From contig OX352322.1 in NCBI GenBank assembly GCA_947090765.1, forward strand, positions 4,881,501-4,945,500: a DNA stretch of 64,000 bases, given 5' to 3'. The stretch is from Pseudomonas sp. MM223 (GTDB lineage Bacteria; Pseudomonadota; Gammaproteobacteria; Pseudomonadales; Pseudomonadaceae). Each line of letters begins with the position of its first letter. The stretch's first letter is position 1. The notes beneath the pieces are model-generated. The model searched no databases. It saw only the letters and a program-made list of their open reading frames with translations, and was not told the origin of the DNA. The translations under genes were made by a program, and so were the position numbers. Shown in pieces: positions 17,383 through 35,819 of the stretch.

Positions 17383-18270
17383 TCATTTCTGTTTGGCATG
17401 CATCTGCTTGACCGCACCGCTGGCGATCAGCTCGGCCAATGCGGCGACGTCGAGCAGTGCACACATGTGTTCGATCACCGTGCCGGCCAGCCACGGGCGC
17501 TGGCCACGTTGGCTACGCCACTTGATCTCGGACGGGTCCAGGCGCAACGAGCGGCTGACCTGGTGCACGGCCAGCCCCCATTCGTAGCCCTGCACGGAAA
17601 TTACATAATTCAGGCCTTGACGAAAATCGTCGCGGTAGCGGTCGGGCATTACCCAACGCGCGGTGTCCAGCACCTTCAGGTTGCCGGCCTGGCAGGTCAG
17701 GATGCCCAGGAACCAGTCGGGCTGGCCGAACAGCGGCGTCAGCTCCTGGCCGGCCAAGGTGTAGATCGAGCCCAGGCACACCAACGGCACCGCCAGGGTC
17801 AGGCCGGCGACGTCGAACAACAGGCATTCGAACGGCTCGGCCGCCCACATCGGGCGCCCGTCGACGGTGGCCGGGGGTACCGGCAGGTTGGGTGCCGGCA
17901 GGTGCACATCCACCAGCGGCACTGCGGGTTCCACGGCGTGTTCTTCGACCAGCACCGGAATGGCGGCTTCGGCCACCACCTGCTGCTCGACCACCGTGAC
18001 CACCGGCGCTTCCACCGGCAAGACGCTGGGCAGCACCGCCAGCTTGGGTTCGGCAAACGGGCGCGGGCTGACTGTCGTTTCAATCGCCGCCGGTTTCACC
18101 GGCTGGCGGGCATCACGCGCTTGTTCTTCGCGCACCGCTTCGGCGAACTCATCCACCACTGCTGGCGGTTCGAACAAATCTTCGGCCTCGGTAGCTTCCT
18201 GCAACAGGCCGTCGAGGTACGACTGCAGGGCCATCTGTGGCCGGGTGCCGGTTTTCTGGGTCTGGGTCAT
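17383..18270 (-). CDS. parP: ParP-type CheW-domain protein for polar placement of chemosensory arrays
   Basis: 295 residues from MTQTQKTGTRPQMALQSYLD. An N-terminal approximately 150-residue region rich in Pro, Val, Ala and Glu, predicted to be disordered, leads to a C-terminal CheW-like domain (WAAEPFECLLFDVAGLTLAVPLVCLGSIY, FLGILTCQAGNLKVLDTARWVMP). This architecture and the position directly after a ParA-like gene match ParP of polar flagellates. ParP there joins ParC to CheA and retains arrays at the pole. Its start overlaps the parC stop by one base (TGATG). The symbol rests on architecture and synteny. Confidence 0.85.
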   Translation of the reverse strand: MTQTQKTGTRPQMALQSYLDGLLQEATEAEDLFEPPAVVDEFAEAVREEQARDARQPVKPAAIETTVSPRPFAEPKLAVLPSVLPVEAPVVTVVEQQVVAEAAIPVLVEEHAVEPAVPLVDVHLPAPNLPVPPATVDGRPMWAAEPFECLLFDVAGLTLAVPLVCLGSIYTLAGQELTPLFGQPDWFLGILTCQAGNLKVLDTARWVMPDRYRDDFRQGLNYVISVQGYEWGLAVHQVSRSLRLDPSEIKWRSQRGQRPWLAGTVIEHMCALLDVAALAELIASGAVKQMHAKQK

Positions 18271-19070
18271 CAGGCTACCTGCACTGCAGTCTTGTAGGTC
18301 AGCAGGTGCTTGAGCAGCGCCCGGTATGCAATCAGCCCGCGGCTCTTGCTGTCGAACTGCGAGGGCGTTACGCCCTTGCGGCTGGCGTCGCGCAGGCGCG
18401 TGTCCACCGGAATGTAGCCTTGCCACACCTGCTGGCCGTAGCTGTCACGCAACTGCTTGAGCGTGCCCAGCGAGGCCTGGGTACGGCGGTCGAACAGGGT
18501 GGGCACGATCTGGTACGGCAGCGCCTGCTTGCGCGAGCGGTTGACCATGGCCAGGGTACCGACCATGCGCTCCAGGCCCTTCACCGCCAAAAACTCGGTT
18601 TGTACCGGGATCACCAACTGCTGGCTGGCGGCCAGGGCGTTGACCATCAGCACACCGAGCAAGGGTGGGCTGTCGATCAGGGCAAAGTCGAAATCCTGCC
18701 ACAGCTGCGCCAAGCTCTTGGCGATCACCAGGCCAAGGCCATTCTGCCCCGGCGACTGGCGCTCCAGCACCGCCAGCGCGGTACTCGACGGCAACAGCGA
18801 AATGCGCTCGTCGCTGGTGGGCAGCAGCAACTGCCCGGGCAGGCCGTCCGGCACTGCGCCCTTGTGCAGGAACAGGTCGTAGCAGCTGTGCTCCAGGGCA
18901 TCGGGGTTGTGCCCGAAATAGCTGGTCATCGAACCGTGCGGATCAAGATCGACGACGACCACGCGCTTGCCGGCCTCGGCCAGCAGGCCCGCCAAAGCGA
19001 TGGTTGTGGTGGTCTTGCCGACGCCACCTTTTTGATTGGCTACTGCCCAGACTCTCATAGGACGACTCAT
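18270..19070 (-). CDS. parC: ParA-like ATPase ParC, polar localisation of chemotaxis proteins
   Basis: 266 residues; an ATG four codons later (MRVWAV) is an equally good start. Deviant Walker A KGGVGKTTTT is near residue 15, Walker A' is VVVVDLDPHGS and Walker B is FDFALIDSPPLLG. It is an orphan ParA: there is no parB or parS-like array nearby. In Vibrio and Pseudomonas ParC places chemosensory arrays at the old pole through ParP, whose gene is coupled to it here. It is separate from topoisomerase IV ParC, with which it shares only the name. Confidence 0.88.
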   Translation of the reverse strand: MSRPMRVWAVANQKGGVGKTTTTIALAGLLAEAGKRVVVVDLDPHGSMTSYFGHNPDALEHSCYDLFLHKGAVPDGLPGQLLLPTSDERISLLPSSTALAVLERQSPGQNGLGLVIAKSLAQLWQDFDFALIDSPPLLGVLMVNALAASQQLVIPVQTEFLAVKGLERMVGTLAMVNRSRKQALPYQIVPTLFDRRTQASLGTLKQLRDSYGQQVWQGYIPVDTRLRDASRKGVTPSQFDSKSRGLIAYRALLKHLLTYKTAVQVA

Positions 19071-21985: not shown

Positions 21986-24229
21986 TCAAATACGCCGCGC
22001 GGCGTAACGCTTGAGCATGCTCGGGACGTCGAGAATCAACGCAATGCGCCCGTCACCGGTGATGGTGGCCCCGGACATGCCCGGGGTGCCCTGCAGCATC
22101 TTGCCCAGCGGCTTGATTACCACTTCTTCCTGGCCAACCAGTTGATCGACGACAAAGCCGATGCGTTGCGTGCCAACCGAAAGGATCACCACGTGGCCCT
22201 CGTGCTGCTCTTCGTGCACCTGGCCCTGTACCAGCCAGCGCTTGAGGTAGAACAGCGGCAGCGCCTTGTCGCGCACGATCACCACTTCCTGGCCGTCGAC
22301 CACGTTGGTGCGCGACAGGTCGAGGTGGAAGATTTCGTTGACGTTGACCAGCGGGAAGGCAAACGCCTGGTTGCCCAGCATCACCATCAGGGTGGGCATG
22401 ATCGCCAGGGTCAGCGGCACCTTGATGACGATCTTCGAGCCCTGGCCCTTGGCCGAGTAGATGTTGATCGAGCCATTGAGCTGGGAAATCTTGGTTTTCA
22501 CCACGTCCATGCCCACGCCGCGGCCCGACACGTCAGAAATCTCGGTCTTGGTCGAGAAGCCCGGGGCGAAGATCAGGTTGTAGCAGTCCGATTCGCTCAG
22601 GCGATCAGCGGCATCCTTGTCCATCAGGCCTTTTTCCACGGCCTTGGCGCGCAGGATGTTCGGGTCCATGCCCTTGCCGTCGTCCGAGATCGACAGCAGG
22701 ATGTGGTCACCTTCCTGTTCGGCTGACAGCACAACGCGGCCGGTGCGGGCCTTGCCGGACGCTTCACGCTCGTCGGGCATTTCCACGCCATGGTCAACGG
22801 CGTTGCGCACCAAGTGCACCAACGGGTCGGCCAAGGCCTCGACCAGGTTCTTGTCCAGGTCGGTTTCTTCGCCGACCAGCTCCAGGTTGATCTCTTTCTT
22901 CAACTGGCGGGCCAGGTCGCGTACCAGCCGTGGGAAGCGGCCGAACACTTTCTTGATCGGCTGCATGCGGGTTTTCATCACCGCCGTCTGCAGGTCGGCA
23001 GTGACCACGTCAAGGTTGGACACGGCCTTGGACATGGCCTCGTCGCCGCTGTTCAGGCCAAGGCGTACCAGGCGGTTACGCACCAGCACCAGTTCGCCAA
23101 CCATGTTCATGATTTCGTCCAGGCGTGCGGTGTCGACGCGCACGGTGGTTTCCGCTTCGCTGACGGCGTGCTTCTCGGCGGCCGGCGCCGGCGCACGGGG
23201 GGCCGGTGCAGGCTTGCTGGCGGCCGCAGGCGCAGGTGCAGCAGCGGCTGGCTTGGCCACCGGCTGGCTGTCGGCCAAAGCCTGGGCAGGCGCTTGCACC
23301 TTGGCGACAGCCGGGGCCTCGACCGCAGCAACATCACTTCCAAACTTGCCCTTGCCGTGCAACTGGTCCAGCAGGGCCTCAAACTCGTGCTCGCTGATTT
23401 CGTCGCTGGCGGCGCTGTTGTCAACGGCGACCGGCGCTGGCGCTTTGGCGGCGGGCAAGGCATCGGCCTGGAACGTGCCCTTGCCATGCAACTGGTCGAG
23501 CAACGACTCAAATTCTTCGTCGGTAATTTCGTCGCTTACCGCTTCTGCAGCCACGGCAACAGGCTGTGCCACAACTTCGACGCTGAACTGGCCTTTGCCG
23601 TGCAACTGGTCGAGCAGCGACTCAAACTCGGCGTCAGTGATTTCGTCACTTTCACCAGTGGGAGCCTCGCCCTGCATCTGCTCGTCGACCGCAGCTTGTG
23701 CCTTGACCGCATCGAGCGAATCGAGCAGCTGTTCAAACTCGCTGTCGGTGATGTCCTGGTCATCGGCCGGCGCCACGGCCGCAACAGGCGCCTCAACTAC
23801 CGGCGCCGCTGCAACAGGCGTTTCAGCGGGTTGGGCGCCACCGGGTTCTGCCAGGCGCGACAAGGCCGCCAGCAGTTCGGGAGTGGCCGGGGTGACCTCG
23901 GCGCGCTCGCGCACCTGGCCAAACATGCTGTTGACCGTATCCAGTGCCTCAAGCACTACGTCCATCAGTTCCGCATCGACCCGGCGCTCACCTTTGCGCA
24001 GGATGTCGAACACGTTCTCGGCGATATGGCAGCACTCCACCAGCTCGTTCAGCTGAAGGAAGCCGGCGCCCCCTTTTACAGTGTGGAAACCGCGAAAAAT
24101 CGCATTGAGCAGGTCGGAATCGTCGGGCCGGCTTTCCAGCTCGACCAGTTGCTCGGACAGTTGCTCAAGTATTTCGCCGGCCTCTACCAGGAAATCCTGG
24201 AGGATTTCTTCATCGGCGCCGAAGCTCAT
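21986..24229 (-). CDS. cheA: Chemotaxis histidine kinase CheA
   Basis: 747 residues from ATG 24229, which overlaps the cheZ stop by one base. The Hpt domain carries the phosphoryl site His49 ([13 protein letters not shown]). Then comes an unusual linker (about 115-360) with four repeats of [17 protein letters not shown] and no evident P2 fold. Dimerisation follows ([21 protein letters not shown]), then the HATPase ([39 protein letters not shown]) and a C-terminal CheW-like P5. It phosphorylates CheY and CheB. In polar flagellates the linker also carries the ParP-interacting region. Confidence 0.97.
23345..23755 (-). repeat. Four imperfect approximately 40-residue repeats inside cheA
   Basis: Within the CheA linker the units [49 protein letters not shown] and [17 protein letters not shown] begin at about residues 160, 197, 236 and 278. 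The DNA is also conserved (GTGCAACTGGTC on the + strand recurs about every 120 bases), which points to recent internal duplication. Confidence 0.9.
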
Positions 24230-25029
24230 CAAACGTGCTCCTTAAAACCCAGGCTGGACAGCAGATCATCGACATCGTCCTGACCGGACACAACGTCTTC
24301 ACGCTTATCGGCATGAATCTGCGGACCTTCACCCCGAGTCGGATGTTTTTCTGCATCTTTTTCTGCGCGCAGTTGATCGTGGTCATGCTGGATACCGGCA
24401 AAGCGGTCGACCTGGCTGGCCATCAGCACCAGTTTGAGCAGGTTGCTTTCCACCTCGGTCACCAGGCTGGTGACGCGTTTGATCACCTGGCCGGTCAGGT
24501 CCTGATAGTCCTGAGCCAGCAAAATGTCGTTGAGATGCCCGGCAACCTTGCGGTTACCTTCAGCGCTGTGCGTCAGGAAACTGTCGACGCGCTTGACCAG
24601 GTCACGAAACTCCGGCGCAGCCACTTCGCGGCGCATGAAACGCTGCCAGTCGGTGCTCAGGGCCTTGGCTTCGCTGGCCAGGTCGTTGAGCACCGGTGTG
24701 CTTTCCTCGACCAGGTCCATGGTGCGGTTGGCCGCACCCTCGGTCAGCTTGACCACGTACGACAGGCGCTCGGTAGCGTCGGTAATTTGCGACACCTCCT
24801 CGGCCTGCGGCATGGTCGGGTCGATCTGGAAGCTGACGATAGCGCTGTGCAACTCGCGGGTCAGCTTGCCGACTTCCTGGTACAGGCCGCGGTCGCGGGT
24901 CTGGTTCAGCTCGTGAATCAGCTGTACCGCCTCGCCGAAACGGCCCCGCTCCAGGCTTTCGACCAACTCCTGGGCATGCTTCTTCAGGGTCGATTCGAAC
25001 TCGCCCAAAGACGTTTGTGATGAATCCAT
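24229..25029 (-). CDS. cheZ: CheY phosphatase CheZ
   Basis: 266 residues. The long helical hairpin core includes ATERLSYVVKLTEGAANRTMDLVEE and the catalytic region HLNDILLAQDYQDLTGQVIKRV, whose glutamine in DYQDLTGQ is the active-site residue. The C-terminal peptide GQDDVDDLLSSLGF is the CheY-docking tail. It terminates CheY signalling. It follows cheY by 20 bases and overlaps cheA by one base. Confidence 0.97.
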   Translation of the reverse strand: MDSSQTSLGEFESTLKKHAQELVESLERGRFGEAVQLIHELNQTRDRGLYQEVGKLTRELHSAIVSFQIDPTMPQAEEVSQITDATERLSYVVKLTEGAANRTMDLVEESTPVLNDLASEAKALSTDWQRFMRREVAAPEFRDLVKRVDSFLTHSAEGNRKVAGHLNDILLAQDYQDLTGQVIKRVTSLVTEVESNLLKLVLMASQVDRFAGIQHDHDQLRAEKDAEKHPTRGEGPQIHADKREDVVSGQDDVDDLLSSLGFKEHV

Positions 25030-25049: not shown

Positions 25050-25424
25050 TCAGCCGTTGACGCGTTCGAAGATCTTCTCGATCTTTTCTTTGAGCACCTG
25101 GGCGGTGAACGGCTTGACCACATAGCCATTGACGCCGGCCTGGGCCGCTTCGATGATCTGGTCGCGCTTGGCTTCAGCGGTCACCATCAACACTGGCAAG
25201 GTCTTCAGTTGATCGTCGGCACGCACTTTGCGCAGCAGGTCGATGCCGGACATGCCGGGCATGTTCCAGTCGGTCACCAGGAAGTCGTAGGCGCCCCTTT
25301 GCAGCATCGGCAGCGCCGTGATGCCATCGTCGGCTTCGTCGGTGTTGGTGAAGCCAAGGTCACGCAACAGGTTCTTGATGATCCGCCGCATCGTCGAAAA
25401 GTCGTCAACGATGAGGATTTTCAT
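25050..25424 (-). CDS. cheY: Chemotaxis response regulator CheY
   Basis: 124 residues from [21 protein letters not shown] single receiver domain with phosphoacceptor Asp52 ([12 protein letters not shown]), the acid pair DD at 7-8, Thr in MVTAEAK and Lys in VVKPF. A TTG four codons upstream is also in frame, but ATG is the usual start of the family. Phospho-CheY binds FliM and changes motor rotation. It is the first gene of the chemotaxis run. A 119-base gap separates it from fliA. Confidence 0.97.
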
Positions 25425-25543
25425 GTTCTTGTCCAATTAGACCTCCAAGCAGTCTCAAACGCGCCCGGCCGACCGGGCACGCACTTATTCAATTCGGTAC
25501 AACGTGGAAACGCACGCGGAAAACGACTGCAACGACACCGGGC

Positions 25544-34326: not shown

Positions 34327-34794
34327 TCAGCGCAGCTTCTTGATACGTTCGCTGGGGCTGATCACGTCGGTCAGGCGAATGCCGAACTTCTCGTTGACCA
34401 CCACCACTTCGCCATGGGCGATCAGCGTGCCGTTGACCAGCACATCGAGTGGTTCGCCGGCCAGGCGGTCAAGCTCGATGACCGAGCCCTGGTTGAGCTG
34501 CAGCAGGTTGCGGATATTGATCTCGGTGCTGCCCACTTCCATGGAAATGTTCACCGGGATATCCAGGATCACATCCAGATTCGGGCCTTCGAGGCTGACG
34601 TTTTCGTTCGGTTTTGGCGAGCTGGCAAACTCTTCCATCGGCATACGGCCTGCGCCGTTACTGCTGCCGGTGTCACCGCCCAGCAGCGCATCGATGTCGG
34701 CCTGCCCGGCCGAGCCGGTTTCCTCAAGGGCCGCAGCCCACTCATCGGCCAGCGCCTGGTCCTCTGCGGAGGTGATCTCGTTTTCGTTAGCCAT
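34327..34794 (-). CDS. fliN: Flagellar C-ring protein FliN
   Basis: 155 residues from MANENEITSAEDQALADEW, with GAGGAAACC directly upstream, which decides the start over MPVEET. The C-terminal SpoA domain contains LDVILDIPVNISMEVGSTEINIRNLLQLNQGSVIELDRLAGEPLDV. The extended N-terminus carries GQADIDALLGG, similar to the CheY-binding peptide of FliM. FliN forms the base of the switch ring and docks FliH-FliI. Confidence 0.97.
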   Translation of the reverse strand: MANENEITSAEDQALADEWAAALEETGSAGQADIDALLGGDTGSSNGAGRMPMEEFASSPKPNENVSLEGPNLDVILDIPVNISMEVGSTEINIRNLLQLNQGSVIELDRLAGEPLDVLVNGTLIAHGEVVVVNEKFGIRLTDVISPSERIKKLR

Positions 34795-34841
34795 GGTTTC
34801 CTCGACAGGCATTCAATTCGTTATGAGCGACCGGCACGCCG

Positions 34842-35810
34842 TCAGCGGCGTTCGATCGGGTCGATGATCTGCAGGGCCAGGTTGCCCTTGTGCGAACCCA
34901 GGCGCGCCTTGAACGACGGCACACCGTTGGCGCGCAGCACCAGGTGCTCGGGCAGCTCCACCGGGATCACGTCGCCAGGCTGCATGTGCAGGATGTCGCG
35001 CAGCTTCAGCTGGCGGCGGGCGACCGTGGCGGTCAGCGGCACGGCCACATCCAGTACGTCCTCGCGCAGGGCCTTGACCCAACGCTCGTCCTGGTCGTCC
35101 AGGTCGGACTGGAAACCGGCATCGAGCATTTCCCGCACCGGCTCGATCATCGAGTAAGGCATGGTCACGTGCAGGTCGCCGCCACCGCCGTCCAGTTCGA
35201 TATGGAAGGTGGACACCACCACCGCCTCGCTGGGGCCGACAATGTTGGCCATGGCCGGGTTGACCTCGGAGTTCATGTACTCGAAGGTGACCGGCATGAT
35301 TGCCTGCCAGGCTTCCTTGAGGTCGACGAAGCACTGGTCCAGCACCATGCGCACCACGCGCAGTTCGGTAGGGGTGAATTCGCGGCCTTCGATCTTGGCG
35401 TGGCGGCCATCGCCACCAAAAAAGTTGTCTACCAGCTTGAACACCAGCTTGGCATCCAGAATGAACAGCGAGGTGCCACGCAGCGGCTTGATCTTCACCA
35501 GGTTGAGGCTGGTCGGCACGTACAGCGAGTGCACGTATTCGCCGAACTTCATCACCTGCACGCCACCCACGGCCACGTCGGCAGAGCGGCGCAGCAGGTT
35601 GAACATGCTGATGCGGGTATAACGGGCGAAGCGCTCGTTGATCATTTCCAGGGTCGGCATGCGACCCCGCACGATACGGTCCTGACTGGTCAGGTCGTAG
35701 CTTTTGATACTGCCAGGCTCGGATGCACTTTCGGTCTGCACCAGCCCGTCGTCGACGCCGTGCAACAGGGCATCGATTTCATCCTGGGACAGCAGGTCCT
35801 GTACGGCCAT
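34842..35810 (-). CDS. fliM: Flagellar switch protein FliM
   Basis: 322 residues. The N-terminal CheY-P binding peptide LSQDEIDALLHG is followed by a linker, the middle domain (MINERFARYTRISMFNLLRRSADVAVGGVQVMKFGEYV, with the FFGGDGR turn) and a C-terminal SpoA domain that pairs with FliN. It converts CheY-P binding to rotational switching. It lies 9 bases downstream of fliL. Confidence 0.98.
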   Translation of the reverse strand: MAVQDLLSQDEIDALLHGVDDGLVQTESASEPGSIKSYDLTSQDRIVRGRMPTLEMINERFARYTRISMFNLLRRSADVAVGGVQVMKFGEYVHSLYVPTSLNLVKIKPLRGTSLFILDAKLVFKLVDNFFGGDGRHAKIEGREFTPTELRVVRMVLDQCFVDLKEAWQAIMPVTFEYMNSEVNPAMANIVGPSEAVVVSTFHIELDGGGGDLHVTMPYSMIEPVREMLDAGFQSDLDDQDERWVKALREDVLDVAVPLTATVARRQLKLRDILHMQPGDVIPVELPEHLVLRANGVPSFKARLGSHKGNLALQIIDPIERR

Positions 35811-35819
35811 TGCGGACTC

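Follow-up and report, generated by a model that had tools for sequence, protein, structure and literature searches.

How a CheA kinase in which no P2 domain is detected may recruit CheY, and what the four short repeats found in the place of that domain may bind, are the questions raised by the cheA gene of Pseudomonas sp. MM223. We examined a window of 64,000 nucleotides from its 6.7 Mb genome (G000; contig OX352322.1, positions 4,881,501 to 4,945,500), for which the 80 best related loci are all from Pseudomonas, with P. putida W15Oct28 the nearest. The linker between the P1 and P3 domains of this CheA carries repeats of two types, A and B, which are kept in one to four copies by all 98 complete F6-type CheAs compared. 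This feature is most likely a known element, the LID of Vibrio CheA, in a multi-copy and two-type form, and a second role as a CheY dock that replaces P2 is plausible from the motif comparisons below. The multi-copy nature, the two types, and the presence of the repeats where ParP is not detected are added here. In the literature searched, which did not extend to the original LID paper, we found neither a match for the exact motif nor an account of multi-copy, two-type, or ParP-less repeats. The kinase and its parts lie in the window as follows.

21986..24232, minus strand: cheA, F6-type chemotaxis histidine kinase of 748 residues, from the list of open reading frames (ORFs), with TTG at 24232 and ATG at 24229
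23933..24208, minus strand: P1 (Hpt) domain, residues 9-100 (Pfam PF01627, E 1.6e-17)
23150..23902, minus strand: P1-P3 linker, residues about 111-361 (from composition, Pfam, and hhalign)
23699..23755, minus strand: repeat 1, a 19-mer of type A, without the HGKG end
23588..23644, minus strand: repeat 2, a 19-mer of type B
23474..23530, minus strand: repeat 3, a 19-mer of type B
23345..23401, minus strand: repeat 4, a 19-mer of type B

The Pfam domains of this CheA are Hpt, H-kinase_dim, HATPase_c, and CheW; the label F6 stands for likeness to V. cholerae cluster II, with no classifier behind it. The repeats start at residues 161, 198, 236, and 279, at distances of 37, 38, and 43 residues, and are set among spacers that consist to 66% of Ala, Pro, Val, and Glu. 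A first-pass annotation of this DNA had placed four repeats about 40 residues apart at 23345..23755, and the 19-mer limits coincide exactly with these positions, with a spacing that agrees. As a refinement, the first copy differs in type from the other three, since it lacks the HGKG end. We defined type B by [LIMV][HYQN]G at columns 15-17 of the 19-mer and assigned all other copies to type A. Across the CheAs compared, the copy proximal to P1 is usually without the -LHG end (type A) and the later copies have it (type B): among CheAs with at least three repeats, 45 of 56 start with an A copy, and 109 of the 120 copies that follow are of type B.

Aligning the linkers and counting the repeats across Pseudomonas, as had been suggested in the first-pass annotation, showed that both number and sequence are conserved. 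Exactly four repeats are present in all 110 Pseudomonas CheA loci fetched (L012-L041, from 30 of 59 genomes, that of the window among them, and the 80 best loci, L042-L121), in the order A-B-B-B in 106 and B-B-B-B in four. Across the 105 unique sequences, the commonest residue at a position has an average frequency of 0.938 for P1, as against 0.914 for the repeats and 0.636 for the spacers. Same-numbered copies are more alike between species (identity 0.83, 0.96, 0.90, and 0.83 for copies 1-4) than any other pairing of the copy concerned. Repeats 2 and 3 of the window are identical at 17 of 19 residues, and at six of these 17 the codons differ. A recent tandem duplication as the source of the likeness is not favoured, given the differing codons and the closeness of same-numbered copies. 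Chance or low complexity was rejected on the basis of the conservation near P1 level and of the pattern I[TS][DE]x[ED]F[ED]xLLD, which matches four times in the linker and in none of 20,000 linker shuffles.

Beyond the genus, we searched 276 genomes of Gammaproteobacteria in the GTDB sense, 146 of which have a CheA relative at E <=1e-80. A total of 120 regions around CheAs or ParC/ParP places were fetched, together with 20 more that hold other CheA classes. Six of the 120 have no CheA core, and 98 of the other 114 loci, namely those with a complete P1-to-P3 stretch and a core identity of at least 49%, form the F6-type set. Twelve loci were left out because P1-P3 is incomplete in one ORF (L142, L194, L197, L203, L208, L209, L210, L212, L219, L231, L232, and L233) and four because core identity is below 49% (L193, L195, L196, and L240). 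All 98 complete F6-type CheAs have one to four repeats, and the last of these ends 39-90 residues ahead of P3 (median 55). Among the 254 repeats of this set, Phe is found in 251 and Glu just before the Phe position in 247; the profile used for detection was seeded from the copies in the window and applied with a score cut-off of 11 (reversed linkers reach up to 10.9), which may let weak copies escape and tilts the Phe count somewhat upwards. In an alignment of 79 rows, every column conserved to at least 90% past residue 123 falls inside the repeats. Repeats also occur in the left-out loci L142, L193, L203, L212, L232, and L233, and L209 has one motif in a separate upstream ORF; none was found in L195 and L196 by the profile scan. 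The repeat is absent from all 20 sampled CheAs of other classes, and no convincing case of it as an element of non-CheA proteins was seen among the 120 of 132 matches listed, 12 of which were examined in full and of which the named or domain-bearing ones are mostly CheA pieces. Two of these matches are unusual. P0003, a "hypothetical protein" of 199 residues from an Enterobacterales metagenome-assembled genome, has the repeats on a 46 kb contig with no P1 match and is perhaps a split cheA. P0054 combines a lipoyl domain with two CheA repeats within 205 residues on a 1.3 kb contig, which is likely an assembly chimera formed via Ala/Pro-rich linkers.

The first-pass annotation had also set the repeats in the place of P2, and this agrees with the sequence searches. 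No P2 (PF07194 or PF09078) was found by Pfam in the CheA of the window at E up to 0.1, nor in the N-terminal halves of 79 F6-type CheAs among 25 listed of 100 Pfam families, although the Pfam P2 models are weak and miss most P2-like segments as well (PF09078 matches one of 22 such segments, and PF07194 one of 14 at E 0.1). Comparison by hhalign of the F6 linker with a profile built on the P2-like segments of other CheA classes gave a probability of 0.2%, and both this value and the linker composition speak against a folded domain between P1 and P3. A P2 hidden in the linker was thus found neither by Pfam nor by profile comparison. Among CheAs of other classes, 15 of 20 carry a GNDP...DPE-type segment that we took as P2, and the repeat-less L195 and L196 carry another P2-like segment; the P2 identity of these segments is weak because it rests on a by-eye sequence pattern and one Pfam match in 22, and a PDB search with them returned no CheA among its matches. 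Three other-class CheAs (L250, L253, and L242) have GEILVQxG-like segments between P1 and P3. The P2 of E. coli and T. maritima CheA is a folded domain, and the repeats resemble it in their position between P1 and P3 and in their proposed role, whereas nothing P2-like was detected by sequence in the CheA of the window. According to the available portion of the survey by Berry and colleagues, P2 is absent in over half of CheAs, which have an extended unstructured region instead (PMC10542144).

A candidate for the role of P2 comes from the likeness of the repeats to peptides that bind CheY. The genes concerned are these:

25050..25436, minus strand: cheY, candidate partner of the repeats (Pfam Response_reg 5.3e-31)
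24229..25029, minus strand: cheZ (Pfam CheZ 8.7e-75)
34845..35819, minus strand: fliM ORF, with the N-terminal LSQDEIDALLHGV, the CheY-binding peptide most resembled by the repeats (sequence comparison)
34330..34812, minus strand: fliN ORF, with the N-terminal QADIDALLGGD (sequence comparison)

The CheZ tail QDDVDDLLSSLGF, which by homology would be a CheY-binding peptide, FliM SQDEIDALLHGV, and FliN QADIDALLGGD all read as the first pass had recorded them. The N-terminal peptide of FliM matches the CheA repeats in its hydrophobic positions 0-5-8-9, its Ser/Thr N-cap, the Glu at 4, and the acidic residue at 6; it differs in having Ile/Val where the repeats have Phe and in being a single N-terminal copy, whereas the repeats are internal and multiple and type B adds LHGKG. 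The CheZ tail has the register [DE]-[VF]-[DE]-x-LL-x-x-L in common with the repeats, but it ends in GF at or near the C-terminus, whereas the repeats are internal. Scored against the repeat profile, FliM 10-mers (from 23 of 24 genomes, one having no FliM match) have a median of 24.8, which lies at the 99.96th percentile among 9,587 10-mers that end in LL and come from other ORFs, and the FliM-repeat score is attained in 0.01% of 20,000 column permutations; the FliM motif shape was partly selected for because these peptides were found via a loose pattern in the first 110 ORF residues. Four of the 9,587 outscore FliM, three of them in ORFs taken as CheA pieces by position (L203 and L209) and one not (27.0, L234). 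The CheZ tails have a mean percentile of 99.96, and 72% of the 69 exceed the 99% level of the null, although they are not independent because they are nearly identical to one another. With the full 19-column profile CheZ is not outstanding, and 65 CheZs rank 13th to 1,422nd among 9,721 ORFs. The FliN N-terminus also resembles the CheY-binding peptide of FliM, and may offer CheY a second binding site on the motor.

The other candidate partner is ParP, whose gene lies downstream of cheA together with parC:

17383..18270, minus strand: parP, named by position and domain (Pfam CheW 6.1e-16; start codon picked from the alignment)
18270..19070, minus strand: parC, ParA/MinD-type ATPase, named by position and family (Pfam AAA_31 9.8e-41; 407-bit match)

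The gene order around cheA, on the minus strand, is cheY-cheZ-cheA-cheB-motC-motD-parC-parP. CheA, CheZ, and CheY were named via Pfam, and ParC and ParP via Pfam family and position; the names CheB, MotC, and MotD are presumed from recognition of the sequences. Relatives of both ParC and ParP were found at 79 of the 80 named Pseudomonas cheA loci (L042-L121), the exception (L083) being a short stretch. ParP has a short N-terminal motif, a linker, and a C-terminal CheW-like (AIF) domain with two near-invariant Trp in the alignment (W276 and W285 of the first sequence). The conserved motif AL..YLD.LL.E ahead of the linker (within 17383-18270) is probably the ParC-binding peptide, since the literature places ParC binding in the N-terminal part. 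ParP is the presumed partner of the B repeats, and ParC the presumed polar anchor of ParP.

As described in the accessible text of PMC7534058, the LID lies between P2 and P3, directly before P3, binds ParP, and is said to occur only in species with both ParC and ParP. Binding between LID and AIF was shown in Vibrio, where W305 in the AIF of V. cholerae ParP is needed for CheA binding (PMC5706961, excerpted text). Three B repeats are found in P0058, a fragment that bears the name V. cholerae CheA, although it ends before P3 and hence matches the LID position by homology only. Because of this fragment, the LID to which ParP binds most likely corresponds to the B repeats. The two systems have in common the F6 CheA class (by likeness), the place before P3, B repeats as seen in the V. 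cholerae fragment, and parC and parP in the gene cluster. They differ in that the LID of the literature searched is one extra domain confined to ParC/ParP species, whereas here we found three to four motifs of two types.

We then compared the distribution of the repeats with that of ParC and ParP, which were accepted at about 281 bits or more and about 57 bits or more and are present in 103 and 88 of the 276 genomes, respectively. Repeats are kept in 75 of 75 CheAs from genomes with both proteins, 13 of 13 with ParC only, one of one with ParP only, and nine of nine with neither (98 CheAs); a tenth CheA with neither (G212, L203) has two repeats in its N-terminal ORF. In the group with ParC only, ParP may have diverged instead of having been lost. 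The 10 genomes with neither (G059, G066, G078, G081, G082, G195, G210, G212, G230, and G319) belong to seven families, and six of them are 99-100% complete (G078, G081, G082, G212, G230, and G319). Absence is less sure in G059 and G195, because these are 91 and 95% complete and have genus or family relatives with ParC. All candidates were scored in G059, G066, G078, G081, G195, and G210, with ParC at <=211 bits and ParP at <=42 bits; in G082, G212, G230, and G319 no ParC or ParP was found among the top candidates scored. At two loci, L201 and L205, cheY, cheA, cheB, motC, and motD stand together, and BLAST with the window proteins as queries found no cheZ, parC, or parP, although a diverged cheZ could be missed in this way. 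Of the CheAs from genomes with ParP, 75 of 76 have one B copy or more, compared with 18 of 22 from genomes without it (Fisher p 0.009, ignoring relatedness and leaving out G212). In G230 and G319 (family f51), the repeats GEITDDEFEALLNQRD and DITDEEFEQLLQMRE keep the FliM-like N-terminal half and have lost the LHGKG end. Two f51 loci in which neither protein was detected (L202 and L204) have an alternative form, with the repeats nested in longer units LxLPExxDPDxxITDxEFExLL. A further locus with neither protein detected, L192 of G081, has the degenerate repeats DDDLEAILDQVHG and ELDFEALLDAAHG next to a CheZ-like gene ending in SQDDADSLLDDLGI.

From this evidence we tentatively put forward, at somewhat below even odds, that the repeats as a whole are docking motifs, with the B-type copies serving as LID and the half common to both types serving also as a CheY dock that replaces P2. 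They would be short linear motifs in a P1-P3 arm of the F6-class CheA whose composition suggests disorder. Each of them, once bound, would form a short amphipathic helix made of Ile with a Ser/Thr N-cap, Glu-Phe, Leu-Leu, and a third Leu. ParP, itself tied to the pole by ParC, would hold the B-type copies through its CheW-like AIF domain. The common half (IT-D/E-x-EFExLL) would also catch CheY, via the alpha4-beta5-alpha5 face used for FliM and CheZ, and three or four low-affinity sites beside P1 would do the job of the missing P2. The difference in partners between A and B, the binding of CheY, and multivalent binding are all inferred. The first-pass annotation had offered a CheY dock and ParP sites as alternatives. 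The former draws on the FliM/CheZ match and the lack of a detectable P2 and is weakened by the generic part of that match; the latter draws on the Vibrio literature, the V. cholerae fragment, the genes for a CheW-domain and a ParA-type protein in parP and parC positions, and the B enrichment, and it fails as a sole role if the 10 genomes truly lack both proteins. In P. aeruginosa, CheY-EYFP overlaps CheA-CFP at the arrays according to the part of PMC12410967 available, and two CheA fragments of this species (P0084 and P0097, overlapping by our own reading) show four repeats, with P2 not listed in the domains precomputed for them; together these fit a dock elsewhere in CheA. The same source states that P. 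aeruginosa has no ParC/ParP-related genes, in contrast to the 79 named Pseudomonas loci with relatives of both. For a check of ParC, P. aeruginosa was sought among 148 genomes of the family, which gave one match that is only 88% identical.

Several observations weigh against the combined role in CheY and ParP binding. The first core hydrophobic residue is Phe in 251 of 254 repeats and Ile/Val in 23 of 23 FliM peptides, which suggests that the repeats have a pocket of their own. The CheZ tail is the top-scoring site of its own protein in only 34 of 69 cases. Of the 79 F6 N-terminal halves, 75 match SHOCT (PF09851) at E <=1, the best at 3.9e-9, and generic helix-cap grammar thus accounts in part for the IT-x-EF segment; the SHOCT score of the N-terminal half in the window, 24.0 bits, is below the gathering cut-off of 27 bits. 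The IT-x-EF helix start is what SHOCT and the repeats have in common, their protein contexts differ, and we know of no link between SHOCT and chemotaxis. What the FliM likeness holds beyond the SHOCT consensus we take to be the Leu-Leu. Furthermore, P1 or P4 alone could hold CheY at the P. aeruginosa arrays. Finally, a split into B for ParP and A for CheY is not clean, because eight of the 10 CheAs from genomes without detectable ParC and ParP retain at least one copy with a B-type end.

Of the alternatives, the one that survives best, though we regard it as doubtful, is that the repeats are the LID and nothing else: multiple sites for the AIF domain, by which CheA is tied to polar ParP and retained in the array, their likeness to FliM and CheZ being a convergence of acidic amphipathic helices. 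Such a role is in line with the Vibrio LID literature (PMC5706961 and PMC7534058, both in excerpt), the three B repeats of the V. cholerae fragment, the position of parC and parP about 3 to 4.6 kb downstream of cheA, their presence at nearly all named Pseudomonas loci, and the enrichment of type B alongside ParP, and the SHOCT match indicates that part of the motif is generic. However, the repeats are retained in all 10 genomes in which neither ParC nor ParP is detected, six of these being at least 99% complete, and the cheY-cheA-cheB-motC-motD cluster persists without parC and parP in L201 and L205; ParP binding is not the sole role if the two proteins are truly absent there. The distribution published for the LID, as far as the available text of PMC7534058 goes, is also contradicted if the repeats are the LID. 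This comparison bears more on that distribution than on whether the copies in the window, which has both genes, belong to the LID.

The same persistence without detectable ParP could instead mean that the repeats bind ParP and a second partner other than CheY, such as CheW, CheV, CheB, CheZ, or the P4/P5 of CheA itself, or that they regulate the kinase in cis. The near-invariant Phe, unlike the residue in FliM and CheZ ligands, points the same way, and another CheW-like domain would be a natural candidate because the AIF of ParP is CheW-like. We nonetheless consider this unlikely, as the sequences gave no lead to a partner of this kind and FliM stands near the top of all non-CheA motif matches.

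It is far less probable that the repeats dock CheY only, with ParP contacting another part of the linker. The lack of a detected P2, the contrast with other CheA classes (no repeat in 20, a segment taken as P2 in 15), and the persistence without detectable ParP would all suit a pure CheY dock. Nevertheless, the association of type B with ParP speaks against it, as does the fact that past residue 123 all columns conserved to at least 90% lie in the repeats, yet the Vibrio LID is in this linker. That the repeats are a functionless low-complexity by-product, as their location in an Ala/Pro-rich linker might suggest, is hardly credible given conservation near that of P1 in 105 Pseudomonas sequences with variable spacers, copies that hold their positional identity between species, and identical residues often encoded by different codons.

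Returning to the combined role, a P2-less F6-class CheA, the principal chemotaxis kinase of Gammaproteobacteria with polar flagella, would use a string of FliM-like peptides for CheY, and the LHGKG-extended form of the motif would also be a ParP anchor; we rate this as possible, with the balance slightly against it. If the same repeats serve CheY and ParP, CheY recruitment and polar tethering would compete for the repeats or divide them. If the repeats dock CheY, its recruitment by P2-less CheAs, which make up more than half of CheAs in the portion of PMC10542144 available, becomes testable with peptides. If they bind ParP only, their survival where ParP is not detected calls for another partner. 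If the repeats are the LID, its published restriction to species with ParC and ParP (PMC7534058, excerpted text) would need revision. Either way, the LID can now be defined by sequence (I-T/S-D/E-x-E-F-E-x-L-L-D-x-L-H-G), by copy number, and by its two types, which makes copy-by-copy mutation possible.

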